A stretch of DNA of 64,000 bases from Sphingosinicella soli (GTDB lineage Bacteria > Pseudomonadota > Alphaproteobacteria > Sphingomonadales > Sphingomonadaceae), in the NCBI RefSeq assembly GCF_014199685.1, contig NZ_JACHNZ010000006.1:1-64000 (forward strand). The letters are read 5' to 3'. The notes beneath the pieces are model-generated. The model was not told the origin of the DNA, ran no database searches, and saw nothing but the letters and a program-made list of their open reading frames with translations. Below, piece after piece: positions 11,825 through 56,752 of the stretch; within the stretch, counting starts at the first letter, position 1, and every line of letters starts with the position of its first letter. A program made the translations under genes and the position numbers.

Positions 11825-11904
11825 ACCATGCCACGTCTTGATACATGGCAGGCTTCATTTTCACTGCAATTATACTGCAACGCAAAATTCAAAAAGGGGC
11901 AATC

Positions 11905-14691
11905 ATGTTTACCAATTCACTTGAACACCGCCATAATTTGAAAAGCGCGCGCCGCCACAAGGCTGTTTGTTTCGCAGGCGCAGCAATGACTTTGTGCGCA
12001 ATCTCGCCTGCGTTTGCCCAGTCTTCCGGCACGCCTCCCGCCAGAACGATCGACGAGGAGATCGTCGTCACCGGCTCGCTCCTTGCACGCAGCGGATTTG
12101 ATGCCCCTACGCCGGTCACGGCCATCGGCACGGAAGATTTGCTGCGCGTCAACGCGCCGGACATCTCCAACGTCGTCAACCAGATGCCCGCCGTCCGCGC
12201 CTCGCTGACCCCCGCGAGCACCGGCAATCTCAGCAGTCTCGCCGCAGGCAACTACATCGATCTGCGCGGCCTCGGCTATCTCCGCACGCAGGTTCTGATC
12301 GACGGCCGCCGCTATTCACCCAACACGCCGAGCGGCGGTGTCAACGTAAGCTCCATTCCCCAGACGCTGGTGCGCGGCATCGACATCGTGACCGGCGGCG
12401 CGTCGGCGGCTTACGGCTCCGACGCCGTGGCCGGCGTCGTCAATTTCCTCATCGACGACGAATTTCAGGGCCTGAAGGGCAAGGTGCAGGGCGGCATCAC
12501 CGATCATAACGACTACCGCAACTATCTCGCCTCGGTCGCCTACGGCACGAACTTCGCCGACAACCGTATCCGGCTTACCGTTGCCGTCGAGGCCGCGCAG
12601 AACAGCGGCATCGATTTCATCGGAGACCGCGATTGGGGGAACAACCCGTCCCGCATCGCAAACCCGGCATGGACCGCAACGAATGATGAGCCGCGCAATC
12701 TGGTCGTCATGGGCGCCAAGGCCGCAAACGTCGCCTACGGCGGCGTCATCAACTCGCCGGGCGCACTGCGCGGGCTGCAGTTCGCACCGGACGGGTCGGC
12801 GATTCCGTTCAACTACGGGTCGCTCGTGACGACGTCCTCGATGGTCGGCGGCGACGGCGTCAACGCCACAGCCGACAATGTCGGTTCCGTCCCTTCCGAG
12901 CGTTATGCGGCATTCGGACGCCTCACCTTCGACGCAACCGACTCGCTGAAAATCTTCGCGGAAATCAATTATTCGAAGATCCAGTCGCGCTTCCCCACGC
13001 TGTCTCGCACCGAACAGCTCACGATCCGCGCCGACAACCCCTTCATTCCCGAGTCCGTCCGTGATGTGATGATTTCGGAGGGGATCCCGAGCTTCGTCAT
13101 GGGCCGCAGTCTCAACGACTATGCCCGCGGCGACATCGATATGGATATCGACACGCTGCAAGCCGTGTTCGGCGCGGAAGGCAGCTTCGGCGATTCGTGG
13201 AAGTGGGACGCCTATTACAGCCACGGACGCACCAAGAACGTCCTCCATCTGGAACAGCGCGTCACATCGCGGTTCGCCCTTGCGCTCGATGCCGTCACCG
13301 ATCCGAACACCGGAGCGGCCGCGTGTCGGTCCACGCTCACGAATCCCGGCAACGGCTGCGTTCCGATCAACCTGATCGGTGAAGGCAACGTCACGGATGC
13401 GGCGCTCAACTACATCAACGGCATGTCGCGCCGCGAATGGGACATCAAGCAGAACATCGTCGCCGGCACCGTTCGCGGCGAGCCCTTCTCCACATGGGCA
13501 GGTCCGGTCGGCGTCGCCGTCGGTGCGGAATACCGGAGCTGGAAGGTCGATACGACGTCCGATCCGATTTCCCAGGTCCAGGGCTATCTCGGCGGCGGCA
13601 CCATTCCCTACTCCGGCAAGATCGAGGTCAAGGAAGTCTTCGGCGAGATTCTCGTGCCGCTGGCAAGCGGGGAAAGCTGGGCACGCGATCTCAGCCTCAA
13701 CCTCGCGGGCCGCATCACGGATTACAGCACGTCGGGCACGGTCGAAACCTGGAAGGCGGGCGTCAATTATGCGATCAACGACTCCATCCGGCTGCGCGCA
13801 ACCCGCTCACGCGACATCCGCGCGCCGGGATTGGAGGAATTGTTCGCTGCAGGCTCGACCAGCACGCTCAGCGTGCAGGATCCGGAATTCGGCGGCGAGA
13901 GCTATTCGGTCCAGGCCGCCAACACCGGCAACCCGACGCTGACCCCCGAAAAGGCCGATACGCTCACGGCAGGTATCGTGCTGACGCCGGACTTCCTTCC
14001 GGGCTTCAAGTTCTCGGTCGATTACTATGATATCAAAATGAAGAACGCGATCATCGCGCTTACCCCGGCCACGATTGTCGATCAGTGCTACACGACCGCG
14101 CCGCAGCTTTGCTCGCTCATCACGCGCGGCGGCGACGGCAGGATCACCCGCGTTCTGAACGGGCCGGTGAACCTTCAGCGCGTCCAGGTCCGCGGCATCG
14201 ATTTCGAATCCTCGTACCGCTTCCCGCTCGGCGCAGGGGACATCAATCTCCGCGCGCTCGCGACCTACATCGACAAGGCGGTCATCGACGACGGCATCAC
14301 GGCGAGCGAACTTCATGACGCGGTCAACCAGCCGACCATTGCGGCGCTCGGCGGAAACCCGCGCTGGCGCTTCAACACAAGCGCGAGCTACATCACCGAT
14401 CAGGCGCGCCTAAGCGTCACCGGGCGGTATGTCGGCGGCGGCAGGATCGACCCGAGCTTCACGTCGAAGGATCTCGATGTTCTCCGCGTGAAGGGGCGTC
14501 TGTATTTCGACATCTCCGGCGAATACGCGATCATCGAGCGCGGCGAGAGCACGGTCGCCCTGTTCGGCAGTATCCAGAACCTGCTCGATCAGAATCCGCC
14601 GATCACGGGCGTAGGCGGCTACGGCACGACGCGCTCGCTCTACGACACGATCGGCCGCATCTATAACGTCGGCGTCAGGTTCCAGTTCTGA
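11905..14691 (+). CDS. TonB-dependent outer-membrane receptor
   Basis: This 928-residue outer-membrane transporter has a signal peptide ending near residue 38 (AISPAFA), the DEEIVVTGS segment typical of sphingomonad receptors, a plug domain at about 60-190 with YIDLRGLGYLRTQVLIDGRR and TGGASAAYGSDAVAGVVNF, and a C-terminal 22-strand barrel ending in the terminal aromatic VGVRFQF. It would import a siderophore, carbohydrate or peptide using TonB-ExbBD energy; the substrate is not predictable. I chose the ATG at 11905 because AAGGGG lies eight bases upstream and the signal peptide then has a normal length; an ATG at 11845 is possible. It is followed by a tandem 15-bp duplication and a strong terminator. 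Confidence 0.93.
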   Translation: MFTNSLEHRHNLKSARRHKAVCFAGAAMTLCAISPAFAQSSGTPPARTIDEEIVVTGSLLARSGFDAPTPVTAIGTEDLLRVNAPDISNVVNQMPAVRASLTPASTGNLSSLAAGNYIDLRGLGYLRTQVLIDGRRYSPNTPSGGVNVSSIPQTLVRGIDIVTGGASAAYGSDAVAGVVNFLIDDEFQGLKGKVQGGITDHNDYRNYLASVAYGTNFADNRIRLTVAVEAAQNSGIDFIGDRDWGNNPSRIANPAWTATNDEPRNLVVMGAKAANVAYGGVINSPGALRGLQFAPDGSAIPFNYGSLVTTSSMVGGDGVNATADNVGSVPSERYAAFGRLTFDATDSLKIFAEINYSKIQSRFPTLSRTEQLTIRADNPFIPESVRDVMISEGIPSFVMGRSLNDYARGDIDMDIDTLQAVFGAEGSFGDSWKWDAYYSHGRTKNVLHLEQRVTSRFALALDAVTDPNTGAAACRSTLTNPGNGCVPINLIGEGNVTDAALNYINGMSRREWDIKQNIVAGTVRGEPFSTWAGPVGVAVGAEYRSWKVDTTSDPISQVQGYLGGGTIPYSGKIEVKEVFGEILVPLASGESWARDLSLNLAGRITDYSTSGTVETWKAGVNYAINDSIRLRATRSRDIRAPGLEELFAAGSTSTLSVQDPEFGGESYSVQAANTGNPTLTPEKADTLTAGIVLTPDFLPGFKFSVDYYDIKMKNAIIALTPATIVDQCYTTAPQLCSLITRGGDGRITRVLNGPVNLQRVQVRGIDFESSYRFPLGAGDINLRALATYIDKAVIDDGITASELHDAVNQPTIAALGGNPRWRFNTSASYITDQARLSVTGRYVGGGRIDPSFTSKDLDVLRVKGRLYFDISGEYAIIERGESTVALFGSIQNLLDQNPPITGVGGYGTTRSLYDTIGRIYNVGVRFQF

Positions 14692-51218: not shown

Positions 51219-53423
51219 TTAAAGCCCTCTGGCCCGGGATTCGCCGGTCTCGCTGTCCTGGGAAGCCATGAATTCCGCAGCAAAGCTCTCGGGGGGTGTC
51301 GGTCTGCCGGTCAGATCGCCCTGGACGATGTTGCACCCGGCGATGCGAAGGAGATCCCGCTGCTCGGCGGTTTCGACGCCTTCGCCGATGACGTCCAGCC
51401 CGAAGCCGCGCGCCAGGTCCATTATCGCGGCGACGATCGCGCGGTCGCTCCCCGATGTCACCATCCCCCGCACGAAGCTCTTGTCGATCTTGATGTGGGT
51501 CAGGGGATAGCTCTTCAGCAGGCTGAGCGAGGCATAGCCGGTGCCGTAATCGTCGAAAGCGAGCCCCACGCCCATCGCCTTCAACGCGAACAGCGGCGGC
51601 AGCGTCTGGTCCTGCTGATTGAGGATGGTGCTTTCGGTAATCTCGAGTTCGAGCGCGTCGGGTGGCAGGGCATAGCGCTCCAGCGTCGCAGCGACCGTCT
51701 CGACGAGGTTTCCGTCGCGAATCTGCGAAGCGAACAGATTGACCGCGACACGGAAGTCGGGCGCGCCCCGGGTTCGCCACAGCGCGGCCTGAGAGCAGGC
51801 ATCGTCGAGCATTCTGAAGCCCACACTCGCGCTCAGCGGCGAGAATTCGAGCGCGGACAGGAACTCCGCCGGCTGGAGCAGCCCAAGCTCCGGATGCTGC
51901 CACCGCATAAGCGCCTCCGCGCCGACGAGGGCGTTGTCGGAAAGCCGGAACTGCGGCTGATAGTGCAGCAGGAACTCGTTCCGCTCCGCAGCGCGGTGCA
52001 GGGCGACATTGCCGTCCCGGCGTGCGGCGGCGGCCATGCGGAGCGCCGGTTCGAACACGACGACGTTCCCGCCCCCCTCCAGCTTGGCCTCGAACAACGC
52101 AAGGTCCGCATTCGCGACCAGCACGCGCACCTCGCCGGCATGCAACGGGCTCATGGCGATGCCGGCACTGCACTGAATGCGGATTTCCTCGCCGCCCAGC
52201 CGGATCGGCACGGAAAGGTCGGCCATCGCGCCTTCCACCACTTCGGTAACGGCCTGCAGATCGCTGGTGCTGACCAGCATCATGGCGAATTCGTCGCCCC
52301 CGACGCGGGCGATCAGGTCTTTTTCGGTGATCCGGTCCGTCAGCCGCTCGGCGACCACCCGCAGCAGTTCGTCCCCCGCTTCATGGCCCAGCGTGTTGTT
52401 GACCGCGTTGAAACCGTCGAGATCGATGATCGCCAAGGCTGCCGGATTGCCGCTGTCGATCGCGTCGGCAAGCCTGCGATAGAGCAGGTTGCGGTTGGCA
52501 AGGCCCGTCAGCGTGTCGAAGTTGCCGAGGTGGCGTAGCCGCGCTTCCTGCTGCTTGTTCCTCGTCACGTCGCGCACGATGGCGGCGAAGTGCCGGTCGT
52601 CGTCGTCGACCCAGCTCGACCATGCGAACTCCATCGGGAACGGGCTCCCGTCGCGGTGCCTGCCCGCATACTCCACGCATTCGGCGCCGACGGTGTTCCG
52701 CGCATTGGCCAGAATATCGTTGGCCGCGTCGCGAATTCTGGCCTCCTCCTCGGCCGGCATCAGGATATCGAGCGAGCGGCCCGTGGCCTCTTGCGAGGAA
52801 TAGCCGAACATGGTCTCCGCGCCGCTGTTCCATGCCGTGATATCAAGGTTCCGGTCGAAGCAGATGACGGCGTTCGGCGATGTCGCCGCGCTGTTTTCAA
52901 ACAGCGTGCGGCTGTTGCTCGCCGCCACCTCCATCCGCCGCAGCTCCAGCTTCTCGGATGCGACGAGGCCGAGGTCGCGCAGGCTCTCCCGGTCGGCGGG
53001 CGTGAAGACCCGGTGCGGTTTGCTGTCGATCACGCACAGAACGCCAAGCGCGTGGCCGGAAGGCGAGCGGAGCGGCACCCCTGCATAAAACCGTGTCGGC
53101 GTCGCGCCGGTCGTCAGCGGGTTGTCGAAAAAGCGCGGATCCTCCAGCGCGTCGGGCACGACCAGCACATCGTCCTGGGTAATCACGTGCGCGCAGAAGG
53201 AGACTTCGCGCCGCATGTCGGCCTCGCGGATGCCCCGGCTTGCGGCGAAGAACACATGCTCGCTGCCGACCAGATTCACCGCCGAAACCGGCATATCGAA
53301 CAGCCGGGCCGCGATTTCCACCACCGGATCGAGGCTCGGCAGCGGGCCCTTGTCTTCCAGATCATACTCGCGAAGGCTGACGAGCCGGTCGTCTTCACCC
53401 AAAATGGCCGATGGATAGCGCAT
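51219..53423 (-). CDS. GAF-PAS-GGDEF-EAL cyclic-di-GMP signalling protein
   Basis: This 734-residue cytoplasmic protein has a GAF domain (about 20-165, with SFCAHVITQDDVLVVPDA, FYAGVPLRSPSG), a PAS domain (about 170-295), a GGDEF domain (300-465) with intact GGDEF at 375-379 in RVGGDEFAMML, and an EAL domain (480-730) with E503-A-L, a complete DDYGTGYASLSL loop and IGEGVETAEQ. Both catalytic sites look functional, so it may be bifunctional. The GAF/PAS parts suggest redox or ligand sensing. Start: ATG at 53423 with GGGGGAAAG upstream; an upstream extension is rejected. It is convergent with the ester hydrolase (16 bases between stops). Confidence 0.93.
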   Translation of the reverse strand: MRYPSAILGEDDRLVSLREYDLEDKGPLPSLDPVVEIAARLFDMPVSAVNLVGSEHVFFAASRGIREADMRREVSFCAHVITQDDVLVVPDALEDPRFFDNPLTTGATPTRFYAGVPLRSPSGHALGVLCVIDSKPHRVFTPADRESLRDLGLVASEKLELRRMEVAASNSRTLFENSAATSPNAVICFDRNLDITAWNSGAETMFGYSSQEATGRSLDILMPAEEEARIRDAANDILANARNTVGAECVEYAGRHRDGSPFPMEFAWSSWVDDDDRHFAAIVRDVTRNKQQEARLRHLGNFDTLTGLANRNLLYRRLADAIDSGNPAALAIIDLDGFNAVNNTLGHEAGDELLRVVAERLTDRITEKDLIARVGGDEFAMMLVSTSDLQAVTEVVEGAMADLSVPIRLGGEEIRIQCSAGIAMSPLHAGEVRVLVANADLALFEAKLEGGGNVVVFEPALRMAAAARRDGNVALHRAAERNEFLLHYQPQFRLSDNALVGAEALMRWQHPELGLLQPAEFLSALEFSPLSASVGFRMLDDACSQAALWRTRGAPDFRVAVNLFASQIRDGNLVETVAATLERYALPPDALELEITESTILNQQDQTLPPLFALKAMGVGLAFDDYGTGYASLSLLKSYPLTHIKIDKSFVRGMVTSGSDRAIVAAIMDLARGFGLDVIGEGVETAEQRDLLRIAGCNIVQGDLTGRPTPPESFAAEFMASQDSETGESRARGL

Positions 53424-53533
53424 TCTTTCCCCCCGGTTGAGAAGCCCCTCCACTCGCCATGCCGTTATGTCAGAGAATATCCCACCCGACCAGCCGCGCG
53501 CGCCACCGCGCCTCCCTCTCAAACGATCAGGCT

Positions 53534-55327
53534 TCAGTCCCGAACGGCGGCGGTTGCCCCCGTGACCAGGTGTCCGCCGGTGATGAGACCGAAGGATCCA
53601 GCCATTTCATCACCGTTCGGTCCGAAAAATCGCATATAAATGTCGCCGACAGAACTTCCGGCCTGCGTAAGACCGGTGAGAAAAGCGCTATCGGCCAGAC
53701 CAGTGCCTGCCACGAGATCGAACTGACCGAAATCGACGGTCGAGCCGCCCACACGGTCAGCACCCTGCAGCCTCAGCCAACCGCCGTACGCCTGCGCGGC
53801 GAAATCGATCTGGAATTGCGAGGTGCCGGTCACGGCGAGTTGCTGCTGCGCGCCGCCGCTGCCTGCCGCGCCGATGGCGATACCGTTGTATGTCGCCGTG
53901 CCGGTCCGACCCAGAAGCACCCCCGGCGCGGTCTCCAGCCCATAGCTGAGGAACGTCCGGGTGATCTCGTTCGCGTCTGCGGTTTCCCGGAATCGCGAAT
54001 ATTCGCCGAAACTGGCGTAGGTCAGTTCGATCTCACCGGGGCCATCGGGCTTGTAGAGCGCCATCTCGAACGTCTCGCCGCCCTCCGTTTTCCGGTAAAC
54101 CGTGAACGCGTCGGCGCTGGTGTCCACGCGGTCCGTTGCGGCGAATTCCACTTCGGGGCCATCTGCGCCGGAAATCGCGTAGCGGCCGTCGGTATAATAA
54201 AACAGGCTCTTCGTCAGCAGCGTGGCTTCGGACGTGCCGTCGTCCGTACCGTCCTTGAGTTGCAGGCCGCTGTATTCGCCGCCCAGCGCGAAAAGACCCA
54301 TATTGTGACTGAGATCCGTCAGCGTGATATTCCGGTCCGGCGCGCTCGGGTTGGCAGCGGTGAAACCACCCACGACCGTGCCGCCGCTGCCGTTGTCGCC
54401 GCTGAACACGCCGCCTGCCTCCTGCGCTTCGGGGCCGTAGAAGCCGCCGTTCAGCTGACCCGCGACGGGATCGAGGGATCCGTCGTAGCGGAACGTGCCT
54501 GAAAAGCCGCCGTCACCGGAATCGAGCGTGCCCGCAGCGCGGAAAGACAAGGCTCCGGTCACTCCGGCGCCGGTCACGAAATAATATTCCTGAAGGTTCG
54601 TATCGATCGTGAACGTGCTGCGGTCGAAGTCGAACATGGTTTGCCCGGTGCCCGCGAATGTCAGCGGATCGCTGCCCACCTGCGTGGTGAGCCCGAACAC
54701 ATCCGTTGTGTACTGGGCCGAACCCAGTCTCGGGACTGCGGCGGTTTCTGTCGGAAAGCCGTAAACGAAGACGTCGAATGCCGTGTCCTGCAGGCTGCCG
54801 CTGCCCGTGTTCGACTGCCAGAAGCCGAGACCGACATGGCGTGTTCGGAGATCGGATGTGTACGACGTGTCGATGAGCGTAAGCGCCTCGGAAGACTCGG
54901 CCGTCGTTACGACATACCGGCGATCCGCATCGCTGCTCGTCGCCACGCGGTCGGCGGGCGCGAAGCTCTGGGTGATACCGTCGCGGTTCATCGTGTAGAT
55001 GCCGGTCGATGCGTTGTAGGAGATGCTGATCTCTCCCAGGTTCACGGACGTGTTTTCAACGATCCCTCCGGGCATCCGAAGCGAAACCGTATTCCGGCTC
55101 GAAGGCCCGGTGAAGGTCTGGCTGTCGACGAGATCAGCGACATCGGGATCAGGTGCCGGGGTCGGGGTCGGAGTGGGTGTAGGGGTCGGTGTCGGCGTTG
55201 GTGTGGGCGTTGGTGTGGGCGCCGGCGGCGTCGTGGTCACGCCTCCCCCCGAACCGCCTCCACACGCCGCAAGCAGGAGGGCCATTGCGCCAAGCGGCGC
55301 CCATTTGATCCGTCCGATAGACTTCAT
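53534..55327 (-). CDS. two-lobed TbpB-like surface lipoprotein, likely Slam cargo
   Basis: This 597-residue lipoprotein has a type II signal with the lipobox LLAAC (Cys22), a glycine spacer, a Pro-Thr linker of ten PT repeats (37-56) and then two similar halves. Each half ends in a beta-barrel closing motif of the transferrin-binding-protein type: GFYGPEAQEAGGVF at 295-308 and FFGPNGDEMAGSF at 567-579. This bilobed plan matches TbpB/LbpB and other Slam-dependent surface lipoproteins. It follows the Slam gene by 18 bases in the same operon, so it is probably carried to the cell surface by that protein. Ligand unknown (metal-binding host proteins are unlikely for a free-living host). ATG at 55327 with GGGAG upstream. 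Confidence 0.85.
   Translation of the reverse strand: MKSIGRIKWAPLGAMALLLAACGGGSGGGVTTTPPAPTPTPTPTPTPTPTPTPTPTPAPDPDVADLVDSQTFTGPSSRNTVSLRMPGGIVENTSVNLGEISISYNASTGIYTMNRDGITQSFAPADRVATSSDADRRYVVTTAESSEALTLIDTSYTSDLRTRHVGLGFWQSNTGSGSLQDTAFDVFVYGFPTETAAVPRLGSAQYTTDVFGLTTQVGSDPLTFAGTGQTMFDFDRSTFTIDTNLQEYYFVTGAGVTGALSFRAAGTLDSGDGGFSGTFRYDGSLDPVAGQLNGGFYGPEAQEAGGVFSGDNGSGGTVVGGFTAANPSAPDRNITLTDLSHNMGLFALGGEYSGLQLKDGTDDGTSEATLLTKSLFYYTDGRYAISGADGPEVEFAATDRVDTSADAFTVYRKTEGGETFEMALYKPDGPGEIELTYASFGEYSRFRETADANEITRTFLSYGLETAPGVLLGRTGTATYNGIAIGAAGSGGAQQQLAVTGTSQFQIDFAAQAYGGWLRLQGADRVGGSTVDFGQFDLVAGTGLADSAFLTGLTQAGSSVGDIYMRFFGPNGDEMAGSFGLITGGHLVTGATAAVRD
55160..55219 (-). repeat. hexanucleotide-based Pro-Thr repeat in lipoprotein gene
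   Basis: Ten consecutive Pro-Thr codon pairs (CCN-ACN) encode the linker between the lipidated cysteine and the folded domains. The units vary at the third codon positions, but a repeat of this kind can still change length by slippage in whole six-base steps without shifting the frame. The linker probably works as an extended tether. Confidence 0.9.
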
Positions 55328-55345
55328 TACGCTACTCCCAGCCTA

Positions 55346-56686
55346 CTAGAACGCTGCCGTGACCCCGACTTCCCCTGAAACGCGCGTGTAATCATAAAGT
55401 TCTATGGTCGACACGTTCCGTTCACGAGACAGTTTCAATATGGGCGCGAATGAACCTACCCTGAACTTTCTTAACGTCGCTGAAAGGCCGATCTCATAGC
55501 GGTCATCCACGCGGCGCTTCGGATAGAGAAACAGCCTGCGGTCGGCTTCAAGATGCTCGTATTTCGCGCTCAGCACCGAAGTCACCTTGCCCATTTCCAG
55601 AAACAGGTAGGCGCCGATGCCGCCGCTCGCTGTGGAATAGCCGGGATCGCGCGCGGTCTGCCGAAGCCCTGAAACCTGCACGCCGCCGCCGAAGCGGGAT
55701 GTAAAGGCCCGGTCGATCCCGACCGAAAGGCTATAGCGATCCGCATCGCGCAGAGACGAACGCCGATCCTCACTCCGGGTTGCGGCGCCGTCCACCCGCA
55801 TCTGCCCGCGACGGCCCAGCGGATGCTGGACGTTGGCGGACAGGCCGTATGAAAACTCATAGGGCTTGCGCCCGTACCATCGCCAGGCCACCAACCCCGC
55901 AAGACTGATCTTGTCCGTTCCGGAAAGAACCTGCGGCCCGGCCTGAAGAGACGCAGCATAATCGTCGAACTCGCCGTCGCGGTACACCCGCGCCGCGCCT
56001 GAAGCCCGCAGCAGGATGTCGACATGCGGATCGATCGGGGCGCGCGCGTACGCCTGCCCGCGCAGCGACACGCCGAGCCCCGATGTTTCCCGCGCATCCC
56101 TGCTGAGGTCAAAGTCCCCGATCACCGTGCCCAGCGTTTCGGAGCGCGTGGCGCGATTGATGTTGCTGTCGGGCGCAAACGCGACCTCCAGACTGCCGCC
56201 GAAGGGCTTCCGCGCGCCGAGGGCCTGAGCATAGAAACGAACAAGCGGCTCGATTTCAGGCGGTAGCCCGGCAGCCTGCGCCGCCCGCAATTCGCGCTCC
56301 GCGGCGCCGATGTTTCCCATCAACGCCTGTATCCGGGCCAGTTCCACCCGCACCCTTGCCGCGTTGGGCTTTTCATCAAGAATTTCCCGAAGCAGCACGG
56401 CCGCCTCGCGATGCTGCTTCCCGGTCTCTGACAGCATCATCGCGAGACGAAAACGGGCCTCGGTCCGGATTTCGATATCGGGGTTTTTGGCCAAGGCGAG
56501 ATAGGCCGTCCGCGCCGCCTCAATATCGTCTGCGGCCTGCGCCTGCTTGGCGAAATCGAACAGCTGCGCTGCCGAAAGCTCCATCGCTTGCGCCGATCGA
56601 GGCTCGGCATCGCGGGACTGTGCAGAGACGTGAACGGGACATGCCAGGGCAAGCAGCGCACCAAGCCGGAGCAGGGCCTTAAACAT
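55346..56686 (-). CDS. Slam (DUF560) outer-membrane protein, type XI secretion translocon
   Basis: Slam proteins move lipoproteins from the inner leaflet of the outer membrane to the cell surface. In this 446-residue protein a signal peptide (about 1-22) precedes a TPR-rich periplasmic domain (35-145; AARTAYLALAKNPDIEIRT, LARIQALMGNIGAAEREL) and a C-terminal DUF560 barrel from about 160, opening with the family hallmark SLEVAFAPDSNINRA and ending in a terminal Phe, as outer-membrane barrels do. The next gene encodes a lipoprotein of the TbpB type, the expected cargo. I start at the ATG at 56686 because it gives a proper signal peptide; no good ribosome site is visible, and a GTG at 56734 is an alternative. 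Confidence 0.87.
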   Translation of the reverse strand: MFKALLRLGALLALACPVHVSAQSRDAEPRSAQAMELSAAQLFDFAKQAQAADDIEAARTAYLALAKNPDIEIRTEARFRLAMMLSETGKQHREAAVLLREILDEKPNAARVRVELARIQALMGNIGAAERELRAAQAAGLPPEIEPLVRFYAQALGARKPFGGSLEVAFAPDSNINRATRSETLGTVIGDFDLSRDARETSGLGVSLRGQAYARAPIDPHVDILLRASGAARVYRDGEFDDYAASLQAGPQVLSGTDKISLAGLVAWRWYGRKPYEFSYGLSANVQHPLGRRGQMRVDGAATRSEDRRSSLRDADRYSLSVGIDRAFTSRFGGGVQVSGLRQTARDPGYSTASGGIGAYLFLEMGKVTSVLSAKYEHLEADRRLFLYPKRRVDDRYEIGLSATLRKFRVGSFAPILKLSRERNVSTIELYDYTRVSGEVGVTAAF

Positions 56687-56752
56687 GCCGGGCTGCGGCT
56701 GAAGCAAATACTGGAAAATCACGCCACACGTCACCGGCCTTTTCGTATTCCG

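Follow-up and report, generated by a model that had tools for sequence, protein, structure and literature searches.

Results

The locus and its genomic setting

The window analysed in this study is a stretch of 64,000 nucleotides from the free-living bacterium Sphingosinicella soli, which carries on its minus strand a gene for a Slam (DUF560) protein, the predicted outer-membrane protein of a type 11 secretion system (T11SS), followed by a gene for a putative cargo lipoprotein. The Slam gene (55346-56686) encodes 446 amino acids when read from its ATG, and its reading frame can be extended upstream to a GTG at 56734; the opening SLEVAFAPDSNINRA given for the protein in the initial annotation was found in the sequence. 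An intergenic gap of exactly 18 nt (55328-55345, minus strand), as had been stated, separates it from the lipoprotein gene (53534-55327, minus strand; 597 amino acids), whose ATG is preceded by a Shine-Dalgarno-like GGGAG. In a sister genome (locus L089) the pair also occupies a single strand, with spacing equal to that in the window. The two genes probably share one transcript; a sigma-70 promoter scan returned no match.

Among named relatives, Sphingosinicella microcystinivorans DSM 19791 comes closest, with a Slam 86% identical and a cargo about 87-88% identical, in agreement with the earlier view that the genome is sphingomonad-like. Between the two species, identities of 86% for Slam and 87% for the cargo compare with 90-97% for the neighbouring shared genes, and the cargo diverges no more than its exporter. 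The window's genome contains exactly one Slam and one barrel cargo, and a tuned barrel profile run over the whole genome found no barrel beyond the cargo's two. TonB-receptor matches number 78 in this genome (3.76 Mb), none of them near the pair; the nearest one found in the window, at 11845-14691, lies about 39 kb from the lipoprotein gene, which bears out the earlier remark that no TbpA-like receptor is adjacent.

A second cargo candidate (L139:6562-8064, on G000:C14) was rejected, as it shares only the Pro-Thr stretch, has no barrel and lies beside a different TonB receptor. This frame encodes a 500-aa lipoprotein, with a TonB receptor-like protein directly after it, and frames that start in a similar way are also found in other genomes of the genus.

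Slam is present in three of six genomes of the genus. Two of the others have an empty site, with 0.8-1.3 kb between the same flanking genes and unrelated ORFs inside. The sister genome does have the pair, with a 6-kb stretch containing a Kup-like transporter beside Slam and a GGDEF-EAL gene elsewhere in the locus. The empty sites, together with the rearranged sister locus, mark the pair as an accessory unit whose site is variable. In the window, a GAF-PAS-GGDEF-EAL protein (51219-53522) adjoins the pair; its sister-genome relative, 68% identical, occupies another place in the locus, and this displacement is itself a sign that the site has been rearranged.

The Slam protein

The first protein matches PF04575 with an E-value of 1.3e-13 and 51.6 bits, which passes the curated cut-off of 22. 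In its AlphaFold2 model (mean pLDDT 89.0; 40 aligned sequences) a signal peptide is followed by TPR-like helices at aa 39-158, seven in number, and by a 14-stranded beta-barrel, whose strands, counted from DSSP, comprise a first one at aa 162-170 and the other 13 within aa 205-445. The N-terminal TPR domain is also recognised by TPR_19 (28.2 bits versus a cut-off of 25), whereas the Slam-specific model PF24575 (Pfam TPR_Slam) scores 18.7 bits, under its cut-off of 35.2. The family match and the predicted TPR domain with a 14-strand barrel both support the earlier identification of a Slam-type translocon.

The nearest solved folds of the model are the TPR-plus-barrel exporters BcsC and PelB and the 14-strand porin OmpG. 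The presence of BcsC and PelB among the best matches raises the question of whether the first gene might encode a polysaccharide exporter of the BcsC/PgaA/PelB kind instead of a Slam, the more so as PgaA had to be removed from an earlier DUF560 similarity network (PMC8406197). However, the PF04575 score is well over the cut-off, the model has 14 strands, like OmpG in the same fold list, and across the family a TbpB-type lipoprotein accompanies the gene product; we therefore regard such an exporter as very improbable.

The cargo lipoprotein

The lipoprotein has a predicted lipobox, LLLAAC, with Cys22 as the putative lipidated residue. It matches PF01298 in two stretches (2.2e-10, 41.5 bits, cut-off 26), and the tuned profile places its barrels at aa 201-326 and aa 475-596. 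In the AlphaFold2 model (mean pLDDT 76.9; 19 sequences) a disordered start precedes two units, in each of which a handle with about eight strands is followed by a barrel of eight. The N-lobe (54353-55120, minus strand) comprises handle strands at aa 70-190 and a barrel at aa 203-325, and the C-lobe (53537-54301, minus strand) handle strands at aa 343-463 and a barrel at aa 477-596. The two lobes are 26% identical (E 1e-10), which points to internal duplication. Each half contains one of the two barrel-closing motifs noted previously, FYGPEAQEAGGVF from residue 296 and FFGPNGDEMAGSF from residue 567; a slightly looser form of the motif, searched in all ORFs of the window and of 60 related loci, matched only ORFs that are also barrel-profile-positive cargo.

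A Foldseek search with the cargo model returned TbpB or LbpB as all of its top 30 solved matches (best E 2.5e-14), and haemophilin, fHbp and NHBA appeared lower in the list. Superposition of the whole protein on TbpB gave a TM of only about 0.3, so that the mutual placement of the two lobes is uncertain. The domain searches and the modelled handle-barrel lobes thus uphold the description of a two-lobed TbpB-like lipoprotein. Narrower models gave scores under their cut-offs: the NCBIfam slam_lipo equivalog NF041636 reached 66.6 bits (cut-off 80), which leaves the cargo outside that equivalog, and Pfam FHBP_C reached 21.8 bits (cut-off 28.1). Together with TPR_Slam, these results mean that the pair matches broad families only. 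No adhesion domain was recognised in the cargo by Pfam and NCBIfam profile searches.

Relatives across the Sphingomonadaceae

In 120 genomes sampled over the Sphingomonadaceae, Slam was detected in 41 and a TbpB-type barrel protein in 34. Of 49 Slam loci fetched, 39 have a barrel lipoprotein gene next to Slam, and the two invariably share a strand; in the named set, cargo and Slam adjoin each other in 68 of 79 loci. Cargos in these 79 loci have from one to four lobes, two being the commonest number, and on the Slam tree (114 rows) the number of lobes changes at least 23 times and the gene order at least eight times. Some genomes combine a single Slam with many cargos: one (G008) has at least nine, some of them unlinked, and another (G029) at least five, none adjoining Slam. 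A tandem array of six single-lobe Slam-type lipoproteins (L140, G008:C2:625000-640000) lies far from the sole Slam of its genome.

Two further groups were seen on the Slam tree. Five DUF560 proteins (L096, L106, L128, L133 and L134) branch off deeply and apart from the rest, and no TbpB-type cargo adjoins them. In a second Slam lineage (L092, L103, L105, L109, L114, L121, L123, L127, L129, L132 and L137) each member follows a single-lobe cargo, which measures about 380-490 aa and has a longer barrel region; several genomes contain this lineage together with another Slam.

TonB receptors occur in 18 of the 79 named loci, with no visible excess over the roughly 0.25 expected per 11-kb locus, a rough figure taken from one genome (78 matches in 3.76 Mb, or about one receptor per 48 kb). 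The largest recurrent neighbours besides Slam and cargo in these loci are a cluster found in 19 of them, which likely consists of spurious frames (an example overlaps Slam on the opposite strand), and a UvrA-like cluster found in 15; none of the neighbour clusters points to a function.

The tether and its poly-glycine run

Between the lipid anchor and the first lobe lies a tether (coding region 55151-55264, minus strand), which consists of Cys22, GGGSGGGVTTTPPA and then a (PT)n repeat up to about residue 59. It is modelled as disordered; residues 1-42 are of low confidence, and secondary structure starts only from residue 70. For the poly-Gly run at the lipid anchor, the window cargo reads CGGGSGGGVTTTP. 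In gonococcal TbpB, surface exposure has reportedly been found to depend in part on a poly-Gly stretch near the anchor. Of 96 cargos, 78 carry GGG in the first seven positions behind the lipidated Cys. The figure for other lipoproteins encoded in these loci is 4 of 35, and three of the four may be truncated or missed cargo. Across 864 kb of the window's genome eight lipoproteins were detected, and the window cargo alone had a poly-Gly run. This control, obtained with a strict lipoprotein filter, yielded just seven other lipoproteins, and the comparison therefore leans mainly on the 35 neighbouring ones. The common form in relatives is C, several Gly and then V-x-S-T-P; a looser V-x-S-T-P pattern fits 70 of 96 cargos and STP occurs in 54 of 96, and the window cargo has no exact match to this form.

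Discussion

Taken together, the results argue that the pair is a Slam and its cargo, acting in type 11 secretion and surface display, a reading to which we assign a probability of about 0.88. What was obtained directly is the gene pair, its profile-based family membership, the two modelled folds and a genome with one Slam and one cargo; the route of the cargo is suggested by what the family does elsewhere. The lipoprotein would leave the cytoplasm through Sec, receive its lipid at Cys22 and travel by the Lol pathway to the outer membrane, where Slam, with its barrel and periplasmic TPR domain, would pass it to the cell surface. The C-terminal TbpB-type barrel may guide this passage, and the displayed lipoprotein would then stand on its Pro-Thr stalk, where an environmental ligand could meet the N-lobe and possibly also the C-lobe. 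That barrel cargo depends on Slam has experimental precedent (PMC5449769, PMC12282271), and the T11SS proteins that the 2025 survey lists as verified cargo secretins all come from the animal-associated cluster 1 (PMC12282271). Slam export in this clade is predicted, and the prediction is tempered by the NF041636 and TPR_Slam scores under cut-off.

The initial annotation regarded the system as little-described, and this holds for the ligand only. For the kind of system it has to be given up, since a largely environmental Sphingomonadaceae subcluster with no characterised member, TXISS-1C, was delineated in 2021 (Grossman et al. 2021, PMC8406197), and a predicted T11SS cargo class named 'Sphingomonas surface proteins', marked by Pro-Thr repeats along with two to three handle-barrel pairs, was described in 2025 (Grossman et al. 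2025, PMC12282271). The pair fits the published class feature by feature: N-terminal Pro-Thr repeats, several TbpBBD domains, handle-barrel pairs, a DUF560 gene nearby and a sphingomonad host. Compared by class description, it shows no difference in kind, and its host and cargo type are, likewise by description, consistent with subcluster 1C. Judged from its sequence and models, then, it matches a member of the described 'Sphingomonas surface protein' and Slam kind.

Slam-TbpB pairs of Moraxella, Haemophilus and Neisseria have in common with this one a Slam and the two-lobed TbpB fold, and in Moraxella and Haemophilus the Slam gene lies beside the TbpB gene (PMC5449769). Unlike them, the present pair has no adjoining TbpA-like receptor, carries a Pro-Thr stalk and has environmental relatives, and the cargo is only about 12-16% identical to TbpB in fold alignments. 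The linked TbpA-type TonB receptor that marks TbpB is absent here, the nearest receptor found in the window being some 39 kb off. The single handle-barrel unit of haemophilin (HphA/Hpl) and of fHbp resembles each cargo lobe; unlike these proteins, the cargo has two lobes, is predicted to be lipidated with a stalk and has no conserved His.

The earlier suggestion that the cargo probably binds something other than transferrin gains support as a probable one. Most likely, the ligand is indeed a different one and is not handed to a dedicated linked TonB receptor. Receptors of this type show no visible enrichment near the pair in relatives, and a dedicated one was set aside as a candidate. A haem ligand was set aside as well: the cargo alignment shows none of the lobes' His, Met or Trp residues to be conserved in the manner of a haem or metal ligand, and the lobes lack a conserved His. 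As for iron regulation, also rejected, no Fur-box-like site stands out upstream; the best match, upstream of Slam, agrees at only 9 of 19 positions, which is unremarkable for the window. With no linked receptor, no conserved His and no Fur-like site, an arrangement like that of TbpA-TbpB in simple form, or of a haemophore, becomes less likely.

Two readings of the cargo's role have to be weighed on these grounds. The one that we prefer, and to which we give slightly less than an even chance, is that of an adhesin or surface-binding protein, in which repeated lobes on a Pro-Thr stalk bind cells, surfaces or polymers. The stalk itself, the range from one to four lobes in the cargos of relatives with its numerous changes on the Slam tree, and the unlinked cargo paralogues in some genomes are in line with it. 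The GGDEF-EAL gene adjoining the pair in the window could be added to this list; however, its counterpart lies elsewhere in the sister-genome locus, so that the proximity is probably incidental, and the profile searches recognised no adhesion domain. Alternatively, the lipoprotein might be a TbpB-like co-receptor, which captures a carrier of iron, haem or another metal, or more broadly a nutrient, for an unlinked TonB-dependent receptor. The closest folds (TbpB, LbpB and the haemophilins) favour such a function, and the 78 receptor matches in the genome offer possible partners. On the other hand, no TonB receptor is linked to the pair in the window or in the sister locus, and relatives show no visible excess of them near the pair; a conserved His is missing, and no Fur-box-like site stands out. 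We hold the co-receptor function to be the somewhat less likely of the two, as a stalk and a lobe number that shifts agree slightly better with surface binding.

A separate problem is the function of the poly-Gly run. One tentative and, in our estimate, rather doubtful explanation would be that it serves sphingomonad Slam cargo as a conserved signal for export or hand-over, which Slam or an earlier step would read, with the number of lobes behind it varying freely. Glycine is not mentioned in the main text of the 2025 survey (PMC12282271). The conservation of this run is an addition beyond the 2021 and 2025 surveys, as are the changes in lobe number, the genomes with one Slam and many cargos, and the empty site. 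A poly-Gly run strongly conserved after the lipid anchor leads to a precise hypothesis on how Slam cargo may be recognised, and a sphingomonad with one Slam and one cargo would be an uncluttered setting in which to study the role of the environmental T11SS branch.
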